DNA of 64,000 nt. Source: Herbiconiux gentiana. Its GTDB lineage: Bacteria; Actinomycetota; Actinomycetes; Actinomycetales; Microbacteriaceae. Under the pieces are notes generated by a model that was not told the origin of the DNA, did no database searches, and saw only the letters and a program-made list of their open reading frames with translations. Every line of letters starts with the position of its first letter. Positions within the stretch are counted from its first letter, which is position 1. A program made the position numbers and the translations under genes. Location: contig NZ_JANTEZ010000001.1 in the NCBI RefSeq assembly GCF_024978135.1, positions 310,001-374,000 of the forward strand. Reading direction: 5' to 3'. Positions 2-3,766 of this stretch are shown piece after piece.

Positions 2-700
2 CGGCAGGATGTTGTCCGCCGTCCCATGGACGATCAGCGTCGGGACGGTGATCGCCGGGATGTCGTCACGGAAGTCAGTGAACCACGTCAGAGGTGCTGC
101 TGCGGACGCCACCGCGCCGCTCTGCGCCGCGACGTCCCAGCTGTGCCGCACGGCCTCCTCGCTGATGCGGCTGCCGAGGTTCTCGTCGAGGTTGTAGAAG
201 TTCTTGTAGAACTCGGTGAAGTAAGCGTATCGATCCGTTTTAACGCTGTCGACGATGCCTTCGAAGAACTCGATCGGTGCTGCGCCTCCCGGGTTGTCCT
301 CGGTCTTCAGAAGGAACGGCTCCAACGACGCGAGGAAAGCGACTTTGCTGACTCGAGCCGACCCGAAGTTCTTCAGGTACCGGGCGACCTCACCGGTTCC
401 CATAGAGAACCCGATCAGAACTGCGTCGCTGACATCCAGCGTCGTGAGGACTGTGTCGAGATCGGCCGCGAACGTGTCGTAGTCGAATCCTTCGGTGGGC
501 TGGCTCGACTGGCCGAATCCACGCCGGTCGTAGGTAATCACCCGGTAGCCAGCTTCGAGCAGCACAGCGGTCTGCTTCTCCCAAGAGTGCCCGTCCAGGG
601 GGAACCCGTGGATCAATACGACCGGCTGCCCCGACCCGTGATCCTCGTAGTAGAGATTGATCGACGCGGTGTTCTCCGTACCGACGGTGACGTGCGACAT
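2..700 (-). CDS. alpha/beta hydrolase, non-heme chloroperoxidase-like (partial, C-terminus outside window)
   Basis: This gene runs off the left edge, leaving 233 codons. The reading frame shows the oxyanion-loop motif HGFPLDG at residues 31-37, the nucleophile elbow GFSMG near residue 98, and the strand HGTADN close to the cut, which usually carries the acid residue. The catalytic His lies outside the window. The pattern fits the cofactor-free haloperoxidase/esterase branch of the alpha/beta hydrolases. The substrate is unknown. The ATG start is preceded by GAGAGGAA at a good distance. A promoter-like site of the ECF41 type lies about 50 bases upstream, and the NmrA-like gene at 857 is divergent, so this is probably a target of the sigma factor at 2864. 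Confidence 0.85.
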
Positions 701-751
701 AGCTGTTCCTCTCAGCAACCGGGACGATCAGTTCGGCCCTCTGCTAACTAC

Positions 752-778
752 GACCACGCGGCCGGATGATCTGTGACC
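752..778 (-). promoter_or_regulatory. ECF41-type promoter for the hydrolase gene
   Basis: On the minus strand the site reads GGTCACA, 16 bases, GGTC. The ECF41 consensus known from other bacteria is TGTCACA, 16 bases, CGTC, so six of seven and three of four positions match. The -10 element ends about 51 bases before the ATG at 700. The -35 element lies almost back to back with that of the opposite promoter, forming the inverted repeat TGTGAC-CGGTT-GTCACA. Confidence 0.65.
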
Positions 779-781
779 GGT

Positions 782-808
782 TGTCACAAATACGTGGTGG
801 ATGCGGTC
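782..808 (+). promoter_or_regulatory. ECF41-type promoter for the first NmrA-like gene
   Basis: The plus strand reads TGTCACA, exactly 16 bases, GGTC. The -35 element is a perfect match to the ECF41 consensus and the -10 element differs at one base. It lies 48 bases upstream of the ATG at 857, nearly mirror-symmetric with the opposite promoter at 752-778. Confidence 0.7.
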
Positions 809-856
809 ATAGCTGATCAGACGCCGCCGACCGGCAGCGCACAAGAGAGGGTCGTC

Positions 857-1603
857 ATGAGAATCGTCGTCGTCGGAGGAACAGGTCTCATCGGCTCGAA
901 AGTCGTCGCGCAGCTCGCCGCCGCGGGACACGACGTGCTCGCCGCTTCGCGGGCCACCGGCATCAATTCCTATACCGCTCAAGGGCTGGAAGACGCCCTC
1001 GAGGGCGCCGAGACCGTCGTCGACCTGTCGAACTCGTCGAACACCGATCAAGCAGGCGCGCTCGACTTCTTCTACGCCTCCACCCTGAATCTCCTCACCT
1101 ACGGCCAAGCCGCCGGAGTACAGCACCACGTCGCCCTCTCCGTCGTGGGCACCGACCGGCTCGCCCAGACCGAGCGCGGCTATTTCTTCGCCAAAGACGC
1201 CCAGGAGACACTGATCCGACGCTCGTCGTCGCCGTACTCCCTCGTGCACGCGACCCAGTTCTTCGAATTCGTCCGCAGCATCGGCGACTCCGCATCCCAC
1301 GGCAACAGCGTGCGCCTCGCGGAGGCGCTCGTGCAACCGATCGCTGGAGACGACGTCGCCACCGCGGTGACCCAGACCGCTCTCGGCGCACCCACGAACA
1401 CGACGACAGAATTCACAGGACCCGAAGTCTTCGCGATGGCGGACCTGGTGAAACTCGAACTGCGTGCCCGTCGCGACCCCCGTGAGGTGGTGGCCGATCC
1501 GCTCGCCCGCTATTTCGGGAACACCCTGGCGCGGGACGAGCTCCTTCCCGCCCCAACCGCCCACCGCTTCACCACCCGCTTCGAAGACTGGCTGGTCAGC
1601 TGA
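857..1603 (+). CDS. NAD(P)-binding NmrA-like protein (atypical SDR), copy 1
   Basis: 248 residues. An N-terminal Rossmann motif GGTGLIG is at residues 7-13, followed by the layout of the NmrA/HSCARG atypical short-chain dehydrogenases (epimerase-like fold). The catalytic YxxxK of classical SDRs is not obvious, so it may be a redox-sensing or non-classical reductase. The ATG at 857 is preferred over an upstream in-frame GTG at 773 because it begins directly with the Rossmann strand and is preceded by AGAGAGG. It is homologous to the convergent gene that follows: same length and same order of motifs. Oxidoreductases and epimerases of this kind are typical neighbours of ECF41 sigma factors. Confidence 0.88.
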   Translation: MRIVVVGGTGLIGSKVVAQLAAAGHDVLAASRATGINSYTAQGLEDALEGAETVVDLSNSSNTDQAGALDFFYASTLNLLTYGQAAGVQHHVALSVVGTDRLAQTERGYFFAKDAQETLIRRSSSPYSLVHATQFFEFVRSIGDSASHGNSVRLAEALVQPIAGDDVATAVTQTALGAPTNTTTEFTGPEVFAMADLVKLELRARRDPREVVADPLARYFGNTLARDELLPAPTAHRFTTRFEDWLVS

Positions 1604-2350: not shown

Positions 2351-2775
2351 CGGGCTTGGTCCTTTCCGGGTGTGTTGCGGTGTCGCGGGGGCAGGGCGAG
2401 GAGGATGCCGAGGGCGGCACTGAGGCCGAGGCTGACGACGTTGCCGATGATGTCGACGGCCGAGCCTTCCAGGTGCATCAGGTGGTAGCCGTAGTGGAGC
2501 ACACCGAATACCGCCCATCCCACGCCGGCGATCCGTCCGGGCAGGGCACTGCGGTGTATCGCAGCGATCAGGCTGGCCGCGGAGAGCGCGAGGTAGAAGC
2601 TTCCGACATCGCGGATGAGGTGCTCGTTGTACGGTCCGTCGACGTCGATCCAATGCAGTCCGAAACCCGGGAACGAGTCATAGAACTCGGTCGGGAAGAA
2701 CTGCGCCCAGATGCCGACGTAGAGGCCGATGAGGACGGTGAGTGCCAGCAGAACCCGGCGAAATGGAGTGTTCAC
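2347..2775 (-). CDS. small membrane protein of the ECF41 module, about four helices
   Basis: 142 residues with about four hydrophobic segments, starting at an N-terminal helix (residues 8-27). A polar loop contains GPYNEHLIRDVG, a segment I associate with uncharacterised DUF4345-like membrane proteins; that family name is a guess. The GTG start lies only nine bases after a CGTC -10 element, so the mRNA is probably leaderless. It is coupled to the second NmrA-like gene by an ATGA overlap. Function unknown; it may receive or produce the signal handled by the sigma factor or its reductases. Confidence 0.8.
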   Translation of the reverse strand: MNTPFRRVLLALTVLIGLYVGIWAQFFPTEFYDSFPGFGLHWIDVDGPYNEHLIRDVGSFYLALSAASLIAAIHRSALPGRIAGVGWAVFGVLHYGYHLMHLEGSAVDIIGNVVSLGLSAALGILLALPPRHRNTPGKDQAR

Positions 2776-2784
2776 ACCTATCAG

Positions 2785-2811
2785 GACGACCCAGCACCTG
2801 TAAGTGTGAGG
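2785..2811 (-). promoter_or_regulatory. ECF41-type promoter for the membrane-protein/NmrA operon
   Basis: The minus strand reads CCTCACA, exactly 16 bases, CGTC. The -10 element matches the ECF41 consensus fully and the -35 element at five of seven positions. A start site about seven bases downstream would fall at the GTG at 2775, giving a leaderless message. Confidence 0.65.
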
Positions 2812-2816
2812 CGGGT

Positions 2817-2843
2817 GCTCACATTCCGGCCTTGCGCATCGTC
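2817..2843 (+). promoter_or_regulatory. ECF41-type autoregulatory promoter of the sigma-factor gene
   Basis: The plus strand reads GCTCACA, exactly 16 bases, CGTC. It faces the promoter at 2785-2811, and the two -35 elements form an inverted repeat (TGTGAG, seven bases, CTCACA). The GTG start of the sigma gene is 20 bases beyond the -10 element, behind a strong AAGGAGG. Positive autoregulation is inferred. Confidence 0.65.
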
Positions 2844-2863
2844 TCTAATGGAAGGAGGTCCTC

Positions 2864-3766
2864 GTGCCAGATGAGAAAAGGTCCACGGTAGATGACGAAG
2901 TGATTGGAGAGCGCCGGCACCTCGTCTCGTTGGCGTACCGGATGCTTGGCACGATCGCCGAGGCTGAGGACGCGGTGCAAGAGACCTACACCCGGTGGTA
3001 CCGGATGAGTCAGACCGAGCGCGACGCGATCAACGTTCCACGCGGATGGCTGACACGTGTAGCCAGCAGAGTGTGTCTCGACGTCCTGTCGTCCGCACGT
3101 GTCCGGCGCGAGCAATATGTGGGGCCCTGGCTGCCGGAACCGGTGCCATCGACCGCCTTTGGCACGACCGAAGGTGACCCGCTCGAGCACGTCACTCTCG
3201 ATGAATCCATCAGTACCGCCCTGCTAGTGGTGCTGGAGTCGATGACCCCGGCAGAGCGCGTGGTGTTCGTGCTTCACGACGTGTTCGCTCTCCCCTTCAG
3301 CGACATCGGGGGGATCGTCGGCCGGACCCCAGCAGCGTGCCGTCAACTCGCGACGGCGGCCCGTCGACGCGTCGACCAAAGCCGGGCACGGCAGGTGCCC
3401 CGGACAGAGCACGACGCTGTCGTTCGCGCTTTCGCAGCGGCGAGCCGTGGTGGTGACTTGAATGCGTTAGTCAAGATTCTCGACCCGGACGTCGTTCTGC
3501 GATCGGACGGCGGAGGAATCGTCACGGCCGCCCGAAACCCGATATTCGGTGCAGATCGAGTGGCGCGCTTTCTTCTCGGCGTGCAGCAGAAGAACGACCG
3601 GACGGAAGTCCTCGAGCAGGAAACTCCAGACGGTTTGGGCTTCGCGATCTGGGAAGAAGGACACATCGCCGGCGTCGTCACCCTCGAGGTCATTGGTGGA
3701 CTTATCGCCAATGTCAGAATGGTGCTCAACCCCCAGAAACTGTCGCTCTGGGCGGACCCCGTCTGA
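2864..3766 (+). CDS. sigJ: ECF41-family sigma factor (SigJ-like) with fused SnoaL-like domain
   Basis: 300 residues. Region sigma2 is at about 15-80 (RMLGTIAEAEDAVQETY) and sigma4 at about 120-175. A SnoaL-like C-terminal domain follows from about 185. All three ECF41 hallmarks are present: the linker motif YVGPWLPEPV (85-94), DGGG (215-218) and the C-terminal NPQKL (289-293). In this family the fused domain replaces a separate anti-sigma factor, and the extreme C-terminus tunes activity. The GTG start has AAGGAGG six bases upstream. The promoter at 2817 suggests autoregulation, and the four neighbouring genes carry the same promoter type. Confidence 0.93.
   Translation: MPDEKRSTVDDEVIGERRHLVSLAYRMLGTIAEAEDAVQETYTRWYRMSQTERDAINVPRGWLTRVASRVCLDVLSSARVRREQYVGPWLPEPVPSTAFGTTEGDPLEHVTLDESISTALLVVLESMTPAERVVFVLHDVFALPFSDIGGIVGRTPAACRQLATAARRRVDQSRARQVPRTEHDAVVRAFAAASRGGDLNALVKILDPDVVLRSDGGGIVTAARNPIFGADRVARFLLGVQQKNDRTEVLEQETPDGLGFAIWEEGHIAGVVTLEVIGGLIANVRMVLNPQKLSLWADPV

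Follow-up and report, generated by a model that had tools for sequence, protein, structure and literature searches.

A probable junction of two ECF41 sigma factor regulons with different promoter dialects in Herbiconiux gentiana

ECF41 is a widely distributed group of extracytoplasmic function (ECF) sigma factors whose promoters and COE neighbours, namely carboxymuconolactone decarboxylases (CMD), oxidoreductases and NmrA/epimerase proteins, are already known (PMC3426412). The published promoter is TGTCACA-N16-CGTC, and the proteins carry a WLPEP linker and an NPDKL-type C-terminal motif (PMC3426412, PMC7730460). Control of ECF41 factors by the sigma factor's own C-terminal domain has been proposed (PMC8999054). 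In the ECF56 system SigG1-RsfG of S. tsukubaensis, an ECF factor fused to a SnoaL_2 domain is bound and antagonised by a co-transcribed second protein (PMC7730460). The ECF41 factors of B. licheniformis and R. sphaeroides share with the locus described here the large fused C-terminal domain, the WLPEP motif, promoters of the form TCACA-N16-NGTC, CMD, oxidoreductase or NmrA/epimerase neighbours and a small target set (PMC3426412). This locus is a 3.8-kb block of five genes at the left end of a 64-kb stretch (G000:C1:310001-374000, called the window in the following) of the 3.85-Mb genome of Herbiconiux gentiana. Most probably, two autoregulated ECF41 regulons with different promoter dialects, here called modules A and B, meet in this block. 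The factors described in PMC3426412 differ in having the -10 consensus CGTC and a single target transcript. Module B has [GT]GTC, at least five sites, and a second SnoaL-like protein that is predicted to act in trans, and the target of module A is a 4-helix membrane protein (MEM) together with the NmrA-like protein NmrA2. We found no earlier description of adjacent ECF41 dialects, of a residue tracking them, of the SnoaL-like partner or of the MEM association, in a literature coverage to which Todor et al. 2020 and Casas-Pastor et al. 2021 did not belong. Searches on ECF41 tandems or standalone SnoaL proteins returned nothing on topic among the matches listed, and those on Herbiconiux and sigma factors returned off-topic matches only.

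The five open reading frames (ORFs) of the block were found where a preliminary description of this DNA had placed them, and its identification of an ECF41 sigma factor (SIGA), two NmrA-like paralogues (36% identity between NmrA1 and NmrA2), a 4-helix membrane protein and a chloroperoxidase-like hydrolase (HYD) stands:

2..700, minus strand: HYD, alpha/beta hydrolase of the putative cofactor-free halo(per)oxidase type, likely ATG at 700, assigned to module B
857..1603, plus strand: NmrA1, NAD(P)-binding protein like short-chain dehydrogenases/reductases (SDR), with NAD_binding_10, GGTGxxG and YxxxK, assigned to module B
1604..2350, minus strand: NmrA2, NAD(P)-binding SDR-like protein with YxxxK, assigned to module A
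2347..2775, minus strand: MEM, 4-helix membrane protein, GTG start, assigned to module A
2864..3766, plus strand: SIGA, ECF41 (SigJ-type) sigma factor with WLPEP linker, SigJ-type fused C-terminal domain and Asp73 in region 2.4

SIGA reaches 310.1 bits on a profile of full-length SigJ-type proteins (cut-off 271), contains sigma2 and sigma4, and has the motifs YVGPWLPEP in the linker and NPQKL at the C-terminus. Its closest solved relative by sequence is M. tuberculosis SigJ (PDB 5xe7, E 2.5e-50). HYD is similar to PDB 1a7u over its full length (E 1.6e-141). The HYD gene is cut by the window edge, runs 136 bp past it and is followed by two further ECF41 genes in L006, a 14-kb stretch on the left flank of the window (adding 14001 to a window position gives the one in L006):

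L006 12965-13855, minus strand: SIGB, second ECF41 sigma factor, starting 9 nt after HYD
L006 12057-12968 (window -1944 to -1033), minus strand: SIGC, third ECF41 paralogue, translational coupling to SIGB, which it overlaps by 4 bp, region 2 divergent

SIGB scores 287.9 bits on the same profile and has YIGPWLPEP in the linker and NPDKL at the C-terminus.

The pattern TCACA-N(14-18)-[CG]GTC has exactly four matches in the window, all with a spacing of 16 and all confined to the two divergent intergenic regions of the block. They are the four sites that the preliminary description had named as ECF41-type promoters:

752..776, minus strand: module B promoter-like site of the HYD-SIGB-SIGC operon, GTCACA-N16-GGTC, GGTC ending 51 nt before ATG 700
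784..808, plus strand: module B promoter-like site of NmrA1, TGTCACA-N16-GGTC, GGTC ending 48 nt before ATG 857
2785..2809, minus strand: module A promoter-like site of MEM-NmrA2, CCTCACA-N15-TCGTC, GTC ending 9 nt before the start codon
2819..2843, plus strand: module A promoter-like site of SIGA (putative autoregulation), GCTCACATTC...TCGTC, GTC ending 20 nt before GTG

The preliminary description had regarded the block as a self-contained module in which every gene carries the same type of promoter and one sigma factor serves all five. This view has to be revised. With TCGTC at the end of two sites and [CT]GGTC at the end of the others, the block contains two dialects, and NmrA2 has no promoter-like site of its own, its start overlapping the MEM stop by 4 bp. 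The HYD operon continues into two more ECF41 genes with further sites and likely targets upstream, and HYD and NmrA1 belong with SIGB to module B. SIGA would transcribe its own gene and the divergent MEM-NmrA2 operon from [AC]TCACA-N15-TCGTC. SIGB would transcribe the HYD-SIGB-SIGC operon and the divergent NmrA1, and would also act at three upstream sites, from GTCACA-N16-[GT]GTC.

By number alone, the window's matches do not exceed chance (4 versus 7.1 expected from shuffles at spacings of 14-18), and because it lies under the shuffled mean this count was dropped as evidence. Across the 3.85 Mb of the genome TCACA-N16-[CG]GTC occurs 29 times, compared to once for the reversed pattern, and 7 of these sites fall inside 12.2 kb here, where about 0.09 would be expected for a stretch that was, however, picked because of the finding. 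The A pattern, [AC]TCACA-N15-TCGTC, has two sites in the genome, both of them in this block (2785 and 2819; reversed 0). The B pattern, GTCACA-N16-[GT]GTC, has ten (reversed 0), of which five lie in this cluster, one beside a fourth ECF41 gene and four elsewhere. Both patterns were defined with knowledge of the dialects in other genomes and of the sites in the window. A site-scoring matrix trained without the loci of this genome gives log2 A/B values of +14.8 for site 2785 and +15.8 for site 2819 (both A), and of -4.4 for site 752 and -9.2 for site 784 (both B).

The two dialects emerge from the comparison with relatives. We counted TCACA-N16-NGTC sites within 4.5 kb of the sigma factor gene, omitting L006 and including L090, a locus on contig C10 of the same genome. 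The base before GTC is C in 28, G in 3 and T in 1 of the sites at 21 SIGA-type loci, and G in 38, T in 16, A in 2 and C in 1 of those at 30 SIGB-type loci. Two of the three G sites come from L062, whose SIGA has Thr at position 73. Over whole loci the pattern has 92 sites versus 5 in reversed sequence. All 57 sites at SIGB-type loci have G in front of TCACA. Among the 32 sites at SIGA-type loci this base is C in 20, G in 8, A in 3 and T in 1, and T precedes the -10 CGTC in 27 of the 32. Compared to the published promoter, SIGA thus has CTCACA in place of GTCACA at -35 and the same CGTC at -10; SIGB has the published GTCACA at -35, and at -10 GGTC or TGTC, not CGTC. A class-wide search returned 30 SIGB loci, of which 4 already used were left out. 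Among the remaining 26 held-out loci, 22 have a site, and all 34 sites have G (23) or T (11). All 26 corresponding sigma rows have Asn as the tracked residue, and as they are of the SIGB type throughout they test the dialect, not the residue alone.

Across genomes the base before GTC follows a single residue of sigma region 2.4, position 73 of SIGA. This position was first picked from the comparison of SIGA with SIGB, and the open scan of all columns came afterwards. The residue table comprises 85 sigma rows (7 duplicates removed, named loci added, sites within 3 kb). Of the 35 rows with Asp73 and a site, 32 have C only and three are mixed, including that of SIGA itself, which is mixed because module B is close by. 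The 39 other rows with a site lack C in 36 cases, two being mixed and one having C only. In the open scan column 73 comes first, with a single error over 74 labelled rows; of these, the two from this genome had been labelled by hand from adjacent sites and the others by site majority. Within the SIGA group three rows have switched (L062 with Thr, L116 with Ala and L160 with Asn), and column 73 separates them best, with 1 of 36 unswitched rows departing compared to 13 of 36 for the next column. The sigma tree, a quick tree with some long branches, needs five changes of the residue, at least three of which are forced by well-supported branches.

We read SIGA position 73 as equivalent to sigma-H Asn92 (offset 19; anchors W81/W62 and Arg69). 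SIGA has Arg69 at the residue aligned with sigma-H N88, where sigma-J also has Arg, and in sigma-H it is Asn92 that touches the first pair of the -10 GTT motif (PMC6411747). SigJ (5xe7) resembles SIGA in having Asp at the residue aligned with Asp73. A preference for C-G at '-14' and '-13' has been reported for at least eight of ten ECF holoenzymes of M. tuberculosis, with the C-terminal helix of sigma region 2 suggested as a possible contact (PMC6372665). Because the switching base corresponds to the '-14' position, a direct contact between residue 73 and the base before GTC is plausible. The residue would largely set this base, Asp going with C and Asn, Thr or Ala with G or T, and such a difference would let two ECF41 factors 2 kb apart act with little cross-talk.

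Which genes belong to which module is indicated by 54 comparison stretches, 52 from relatives found with MEM, SIGA and SIGB and two from contig C10. SIGA-type loci mostly contain MEM and NmrA2, divergent or downstream, together with CGTC sites. SIGB-type loci often contain NmrA1- or NmrA3-type genes and sometimes CMD, a FAD reductase, an SDR or the aldo-keto reductase (AKR)/MerR genes, together with GGTC or TGTC sites. A SIGB-type sigma factor was found in none of the 21 SIGA-type comparison loci. In G199, G202 and G204, which belong to the same genus, both modules are present at separate places; among the genomes compared, they lie side by side in this genome only. A search of 199 family genomes with MEM gave 20 matches, which come from 19 of the genomes. 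The expected co-occurrence with ECF41 was found for MEM, with 18 of the 20 matches having an ECF41 gene in the fetched stretch (13 of the SIGA and 5 of the SIGB type; L063 and L074 have MEM without one), and not for HYD, which reaches 200 bits in 1 of the 54 comparison loci. HYD is therefore ruled out as a conserved module member. Among the best 80 of 123 MEM loci in named genomes, some of which had already been sampled and some of which end at contig ends, an ECF41 gene scoring 80 bits or more lies within about 6 kb in 34, and an NmrA relative is present in 39 and an NGTC site at spacing 16 in 54. Five loci of Spirosoma (Bacteroidota; L143, L162, L166, L175 and L191) have the same set of ECF41, TTGTC site, MEM and NmrA, and their ECF41 factors carry Asn at the tracked residue.

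Module B contains, in addition, a putative partner of SIGB. With a profile of standalone proteins, a separate SnoaL-like ORF downstream on the same strand was found in 18 of 43 SIGB rows and 1 of 42 SIGA rows; of the 16 proteins used to build this profile, 13 belong to the 18 partners and were thus found by construction, and the four SIGC, the L104 partner and the held-out partners lie outside the building set. The 18 partner-bearing rows make up exactly one SIGB clade (branch support 93, unstarred), all sampled from Microbacteriaceae, and the other SIGB rows have none (0 of 25). Four of the partners are full-length SIGC and 14 are bare domains, 13 of the latter having 111-171 residues with uncertain starts. 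The held-out loci within Microbacteriaceae have the partner in 3 of 3 cases. Outside the family it is found in 3 of 23 (within about 1.5 kb), which counts against the partner as a general feature of SIGB and rules out this generalisation. The predicted fold of one standalone partner (pLDDT 87.2) has SigJ 5xe7 as its best PDB match, followed by many NTF2-fold proteins; ketosteroid isomerase and limonene epoxide hydrolase are among the matches. We read the partner as a lineage-specific regulator related to an ECF41 paralogue. The reverse direction, fusion of a free domain into SIGC, is conceivable because full-length SIGC is confined to one subclade.

As has been suggested for other members of ECF41, each sigma factor probably stays inactive under its own SnoaL-like domain as long as no small molecule is bound, and SIGC might be a sigma paralogue that is losing its sigma functions and acts on SIGB in trans. 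Under a joint reading, which we put forward only tentatively, SIGC has turned into a trans-acting, ligand-sensing regulator in Microbacteriaceae and region 2.4 has repeatedly retuned ECF41 promoters, the exchange of Asp for Asn, Thr or Ala shifting CGTC to [GT]GTC each time. Core-binding and -10 functions would have been lost stepwise inside one genus, from the full-length protein here through loss of the linker in two species to the SnoaL-like domain alone in H. solani, and the SIGC product would control SIGB alongside SIGB's own fused domain. SigG1-RsfG would be a functional precedent for such a partner, likened to it by description only and differing in being ECF56, not ECF41.

SIGC might also be an ordinary third ECF41 sigma factor, and the standalone SnoaL-like proteins NTF2-fold enzymes or binders that do not touch SIGB, which we consider possible, at somewhat below an even chance. 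In this genome SIGC still has the WLPEP and NPDKL motifs, and its sigma regions 2 and 4 are recognised by Pfam (3.7e-6 and 5.4e-8); NTF2-fold proteins are, moreover, often enzymes. SIGC reaches 260.8 bits on the SigJ-type profile, under the cut-off of 271. Against an ordinary sigma factor speak Gln39, which is invariant in 58 other rows and Asp in 4 of 4 SIGC rows, the loss of the WLPEP linker and the end of region 2.4 in the SIGC of L085 and L086, and the H. solani copy (L087), in which the SnoaL-like domain is present and the sigma part absent. A tree of the C-terminal domains, for which 39 of 43 SIGB rows and every second row of SIGA were used, moreover puts the SIGC termini into one group with the standalone partners (SH-aLRT 96, few columns). 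Between species, leaving aside the close pair L085-L086, SIGC is 51-58% identical in sigma2, 67-80% in sigma4 and 37-58% in the C-terminal domain, compared to 78-91%, 88-94% and 69-80% for SIGB. By these identities SIGC evolves faster than SIGB throughout, and most in the linker. Two points weigh against a decay of SIGC. The C-terminal domain of SIGC is no better conserved than its sigma2 in absolute terms, and sigma4 is well conserved even between distant pairs, as the ordinary factor would have it. Furthermore, the four SIGC rows depart at 13 (the SIGC of this genome), 15, 20 and 22 of 48 conserved columns, more than most ECF41 rows (mean 1.8), a range overlapped by the distant SIGA rows L092-L094 (17, 14 and 13 departures), so that the departure count is weakened as a proof of decay. 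This overlap therefore raised the ordinary sigma factor in our estimate and lowered the trans-acting regulator.

The junction of two regulons has to be weighed against regulons that overlap, in which the two sigma factors differ in preference and yet NmrA1, HYD and MEM answer to both. The TCACA core and the spacing are identical in both dialects, and the SIGA-type loci L073 and L092-L094 have CGTC sites prefixed by GTCACA, so that the -35 prefix alone would be no insulator. Sigma factors that share the residue have almost exclusively one kind of base before GTC, however, and the A pattern is found at two genome sites only, and we consider an overlap unlikely. Several further observations weigh against two cleanly separated modules or against the residue rule, in addition to the hand labelling of two rows. 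Site 752 is only mildly B-like, its score of -4.4 shrinking to -1.7 if the base before GTC is left out. Four of the ten B-pattern sites sit away from any ECF41 gene, and the counts comprise fixed-pattern sites, by which weaker or otherwise spaced sites are missed. L144 breaks the residue rule, combining Asn with a C site. The tree offers three well-supported independent pairs only, in which the base follows the residue in 2.5 of 3 on average and never goes in the opposite direction, and a sign test over three pairs is too small to reach significance. Five MEM genes are linked to SIGB-type factors, these being distant relatives at 32-35% identity, and NmrA1-, NmrA3- or NmrA5-type genes (at least 200 bits) are found near only 13 of the 18 members of the SIGB clade. 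HYD, as seen above, is conserved in neither module. That SIGA alone controls all five genes and C or G before GTC is neutral variation, as the same -35 core, the same spacing, the adjacency of the genes and some expected degeneracy in a published logo spanning 285 sequences (PMC3426412) would allow, is very improbable and is ruled out by dialects and synteny, because the dialects also diverge in the bases immediately preceding TCACA and the -10 element and follow the sigma type elsewhere, NmrA1-type genes go with SIGB in other genomes and HYD with neither, and a second and a third ECF41 gene lie in the same cluster.

The junction of modules A and B remains our preferred interpretation. Genome comparison shows which genes go with which module, the two dialects, the association with the residue and the partner gene in Microbacteriaceae; that the promoters are active and insulated, that ligands control the factors, that SIGC acts in trans and what chemistry results is inferred. 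To the left of SIGC come the following genes (L006 coordinates):

11230-11994: SDR, left of SIGC
9260-10597: FAD/NAD reductase of the aromatic-dioxygenase type
8731-9201: CMD
7958-8722: NmrA3
7527-7904: small ORF with hydrophobic stretches
5690-7159: MerR-like regulator and aldo-keto reductase pair at the side of the cluster, both named from sequence by eye

NmrA4 and NmrA5 lie farther left, past the MerR-like gene. All three COE neighbour kinds are hence present in the cluster. Of the three B sites upstream of the HYD operon, two precede NmrA-like genes, one of which is followed by CMD and the FAD reductase. L098 and L232 have the MerR-like and aldo-keto reductase pair next to SIGB, L192 has it close to MEM, and L069 has the aldo-keto reductase at 90% identity. 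The fourth ECF41 gene of the genome lies on contig C10 (L090, G000:C10:37726-38982) with its own NmrA genes, of the NmrA3 and NmrA1 types; it has Thr at the tracked residue, a standalone SnoaL-like gene and a GGTC site. An unusually dense ECF41 regulon is seen in genome G025 (L100 4652-10182), with eight GTCACA-N16-GGTC sites in 5.5 kb around a SIGB-type gene and a second SIGB-type gene beginning about 1.2 kb on. On the other side of the block, 3' of SIGA, a second alpha/beta hydrolase (window 4802-5584) and a RibD-like reductase (5636-6307) follow, where ECF41-type sites are absent.

The predicted outputs of the two modules are NAD(P)-dependent SDR-like enzymes together with CMD, the FAD reductase and the hydrolase. 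In NmrA-like regulators the catalytic YxxxK of SDR enzymes is lost. All five NmrA-like paralogues of the cluster keep GGTGxxG and Y109xxxK113. NmrA1 and NmrA2 score 26.8 and 21.1 bits on NmrA (PF05368), under the cut-off of 27, and both pass NAD_binding_10; NmrA3-5 outside the window pass the NmrA cut-off (27.9-30.5 bits). Because YxxxK is kept and NmrA1 and NmrA2 stay below the NmrA cut-off, the NmrA-like proteins are more likely NAD(P)-dependent reductases or epimerases than NmrA-type sensors. A search of solved structures with NmrA1 gave only two matches (E 5.1e-4 and 9.7e-4), both uninformative. In the ungapped alignment of HYD with 1a7u, GFSMG, the Asp of GTAD and the His of GAPHG are in place, and the Ser of GFSMG, this Asp and this His we take to be the catalytic triad. 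HYD thus fits the cofactor-free haloperoxidase/perhydrolase type, with this as its putative activity. We know of no signal and no chemistry assigned to ECF41. Since a haloperoxidase-type HYD, CMD, an FAD reductase and SDR-like enzymes occur together, we infer that the cluster most likely serves to detoxify reactive carbonyls, quinones or peroxides, and the redox or aromatic-compound detoxification suggested earlier for the block is plausible.

MEM and its relatives (23 sequences) have 12 invariant columns, including E51-H52, R55-D56, H94 and H98, and an AlphaFold2 model of MEM shows four long helices and a short one (pLDDT 88.9). Its fold gave nothing informative against solved structures (best E 0.39). 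MEM scores 17.4 bits on DUF4345 (PF14248), under the gathering score of 26.5, and 15 of the 23 relatives match this family at E up to 1 (best 9.2e-7), so that MEM may at most be a distant DUF4345 relative. In the first set the start codon lies 8-9 nt past the GTC of the site in 10 of 24 MEM genes; one other has its site 114 nt away, and 13, mostly located 3' of another gene, have no upstream site. Of the named loci covered, which are the best 80 of 123, 37 show a site at most 200 nt upstream of the match, and in 30 of these 37 an in-frame start codon follows 8-9 nt after GTC, the genomes being partly shared with the first set. The -10 motif is numbered G-11 T-10 T-9 (PMC6411747), and with a gap of 8-9 nt transcription would therefore begin on the first base of the MEM start codon or immediately beside it. 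The MEM mRNA is thus predicted to be leaderless, a feature that would be conserved in many genomes. The invariant Glu, His, Arg and Asp residues and the frequent company of ECF41 from Actinobacteria to Spirosoma point to an uncharacterised enzyme or carrier.

The pair SIGA and SIGB offers a clean system, with two ECF41 factors in one cell, small predicted regulons, distinct -10 dialects and one swappable residue. If the residue rule holds, ECF41 target promoters would become predictable from the sigma factor sequence, and the pairs might serve as orthogonal parts. The SnoaL-like domain occurs both fused and free, and the small free form offers a route to the ligand. The retuning of region 2.4, if true, would have produced natural insulated sigma-promoter pairs within one family.

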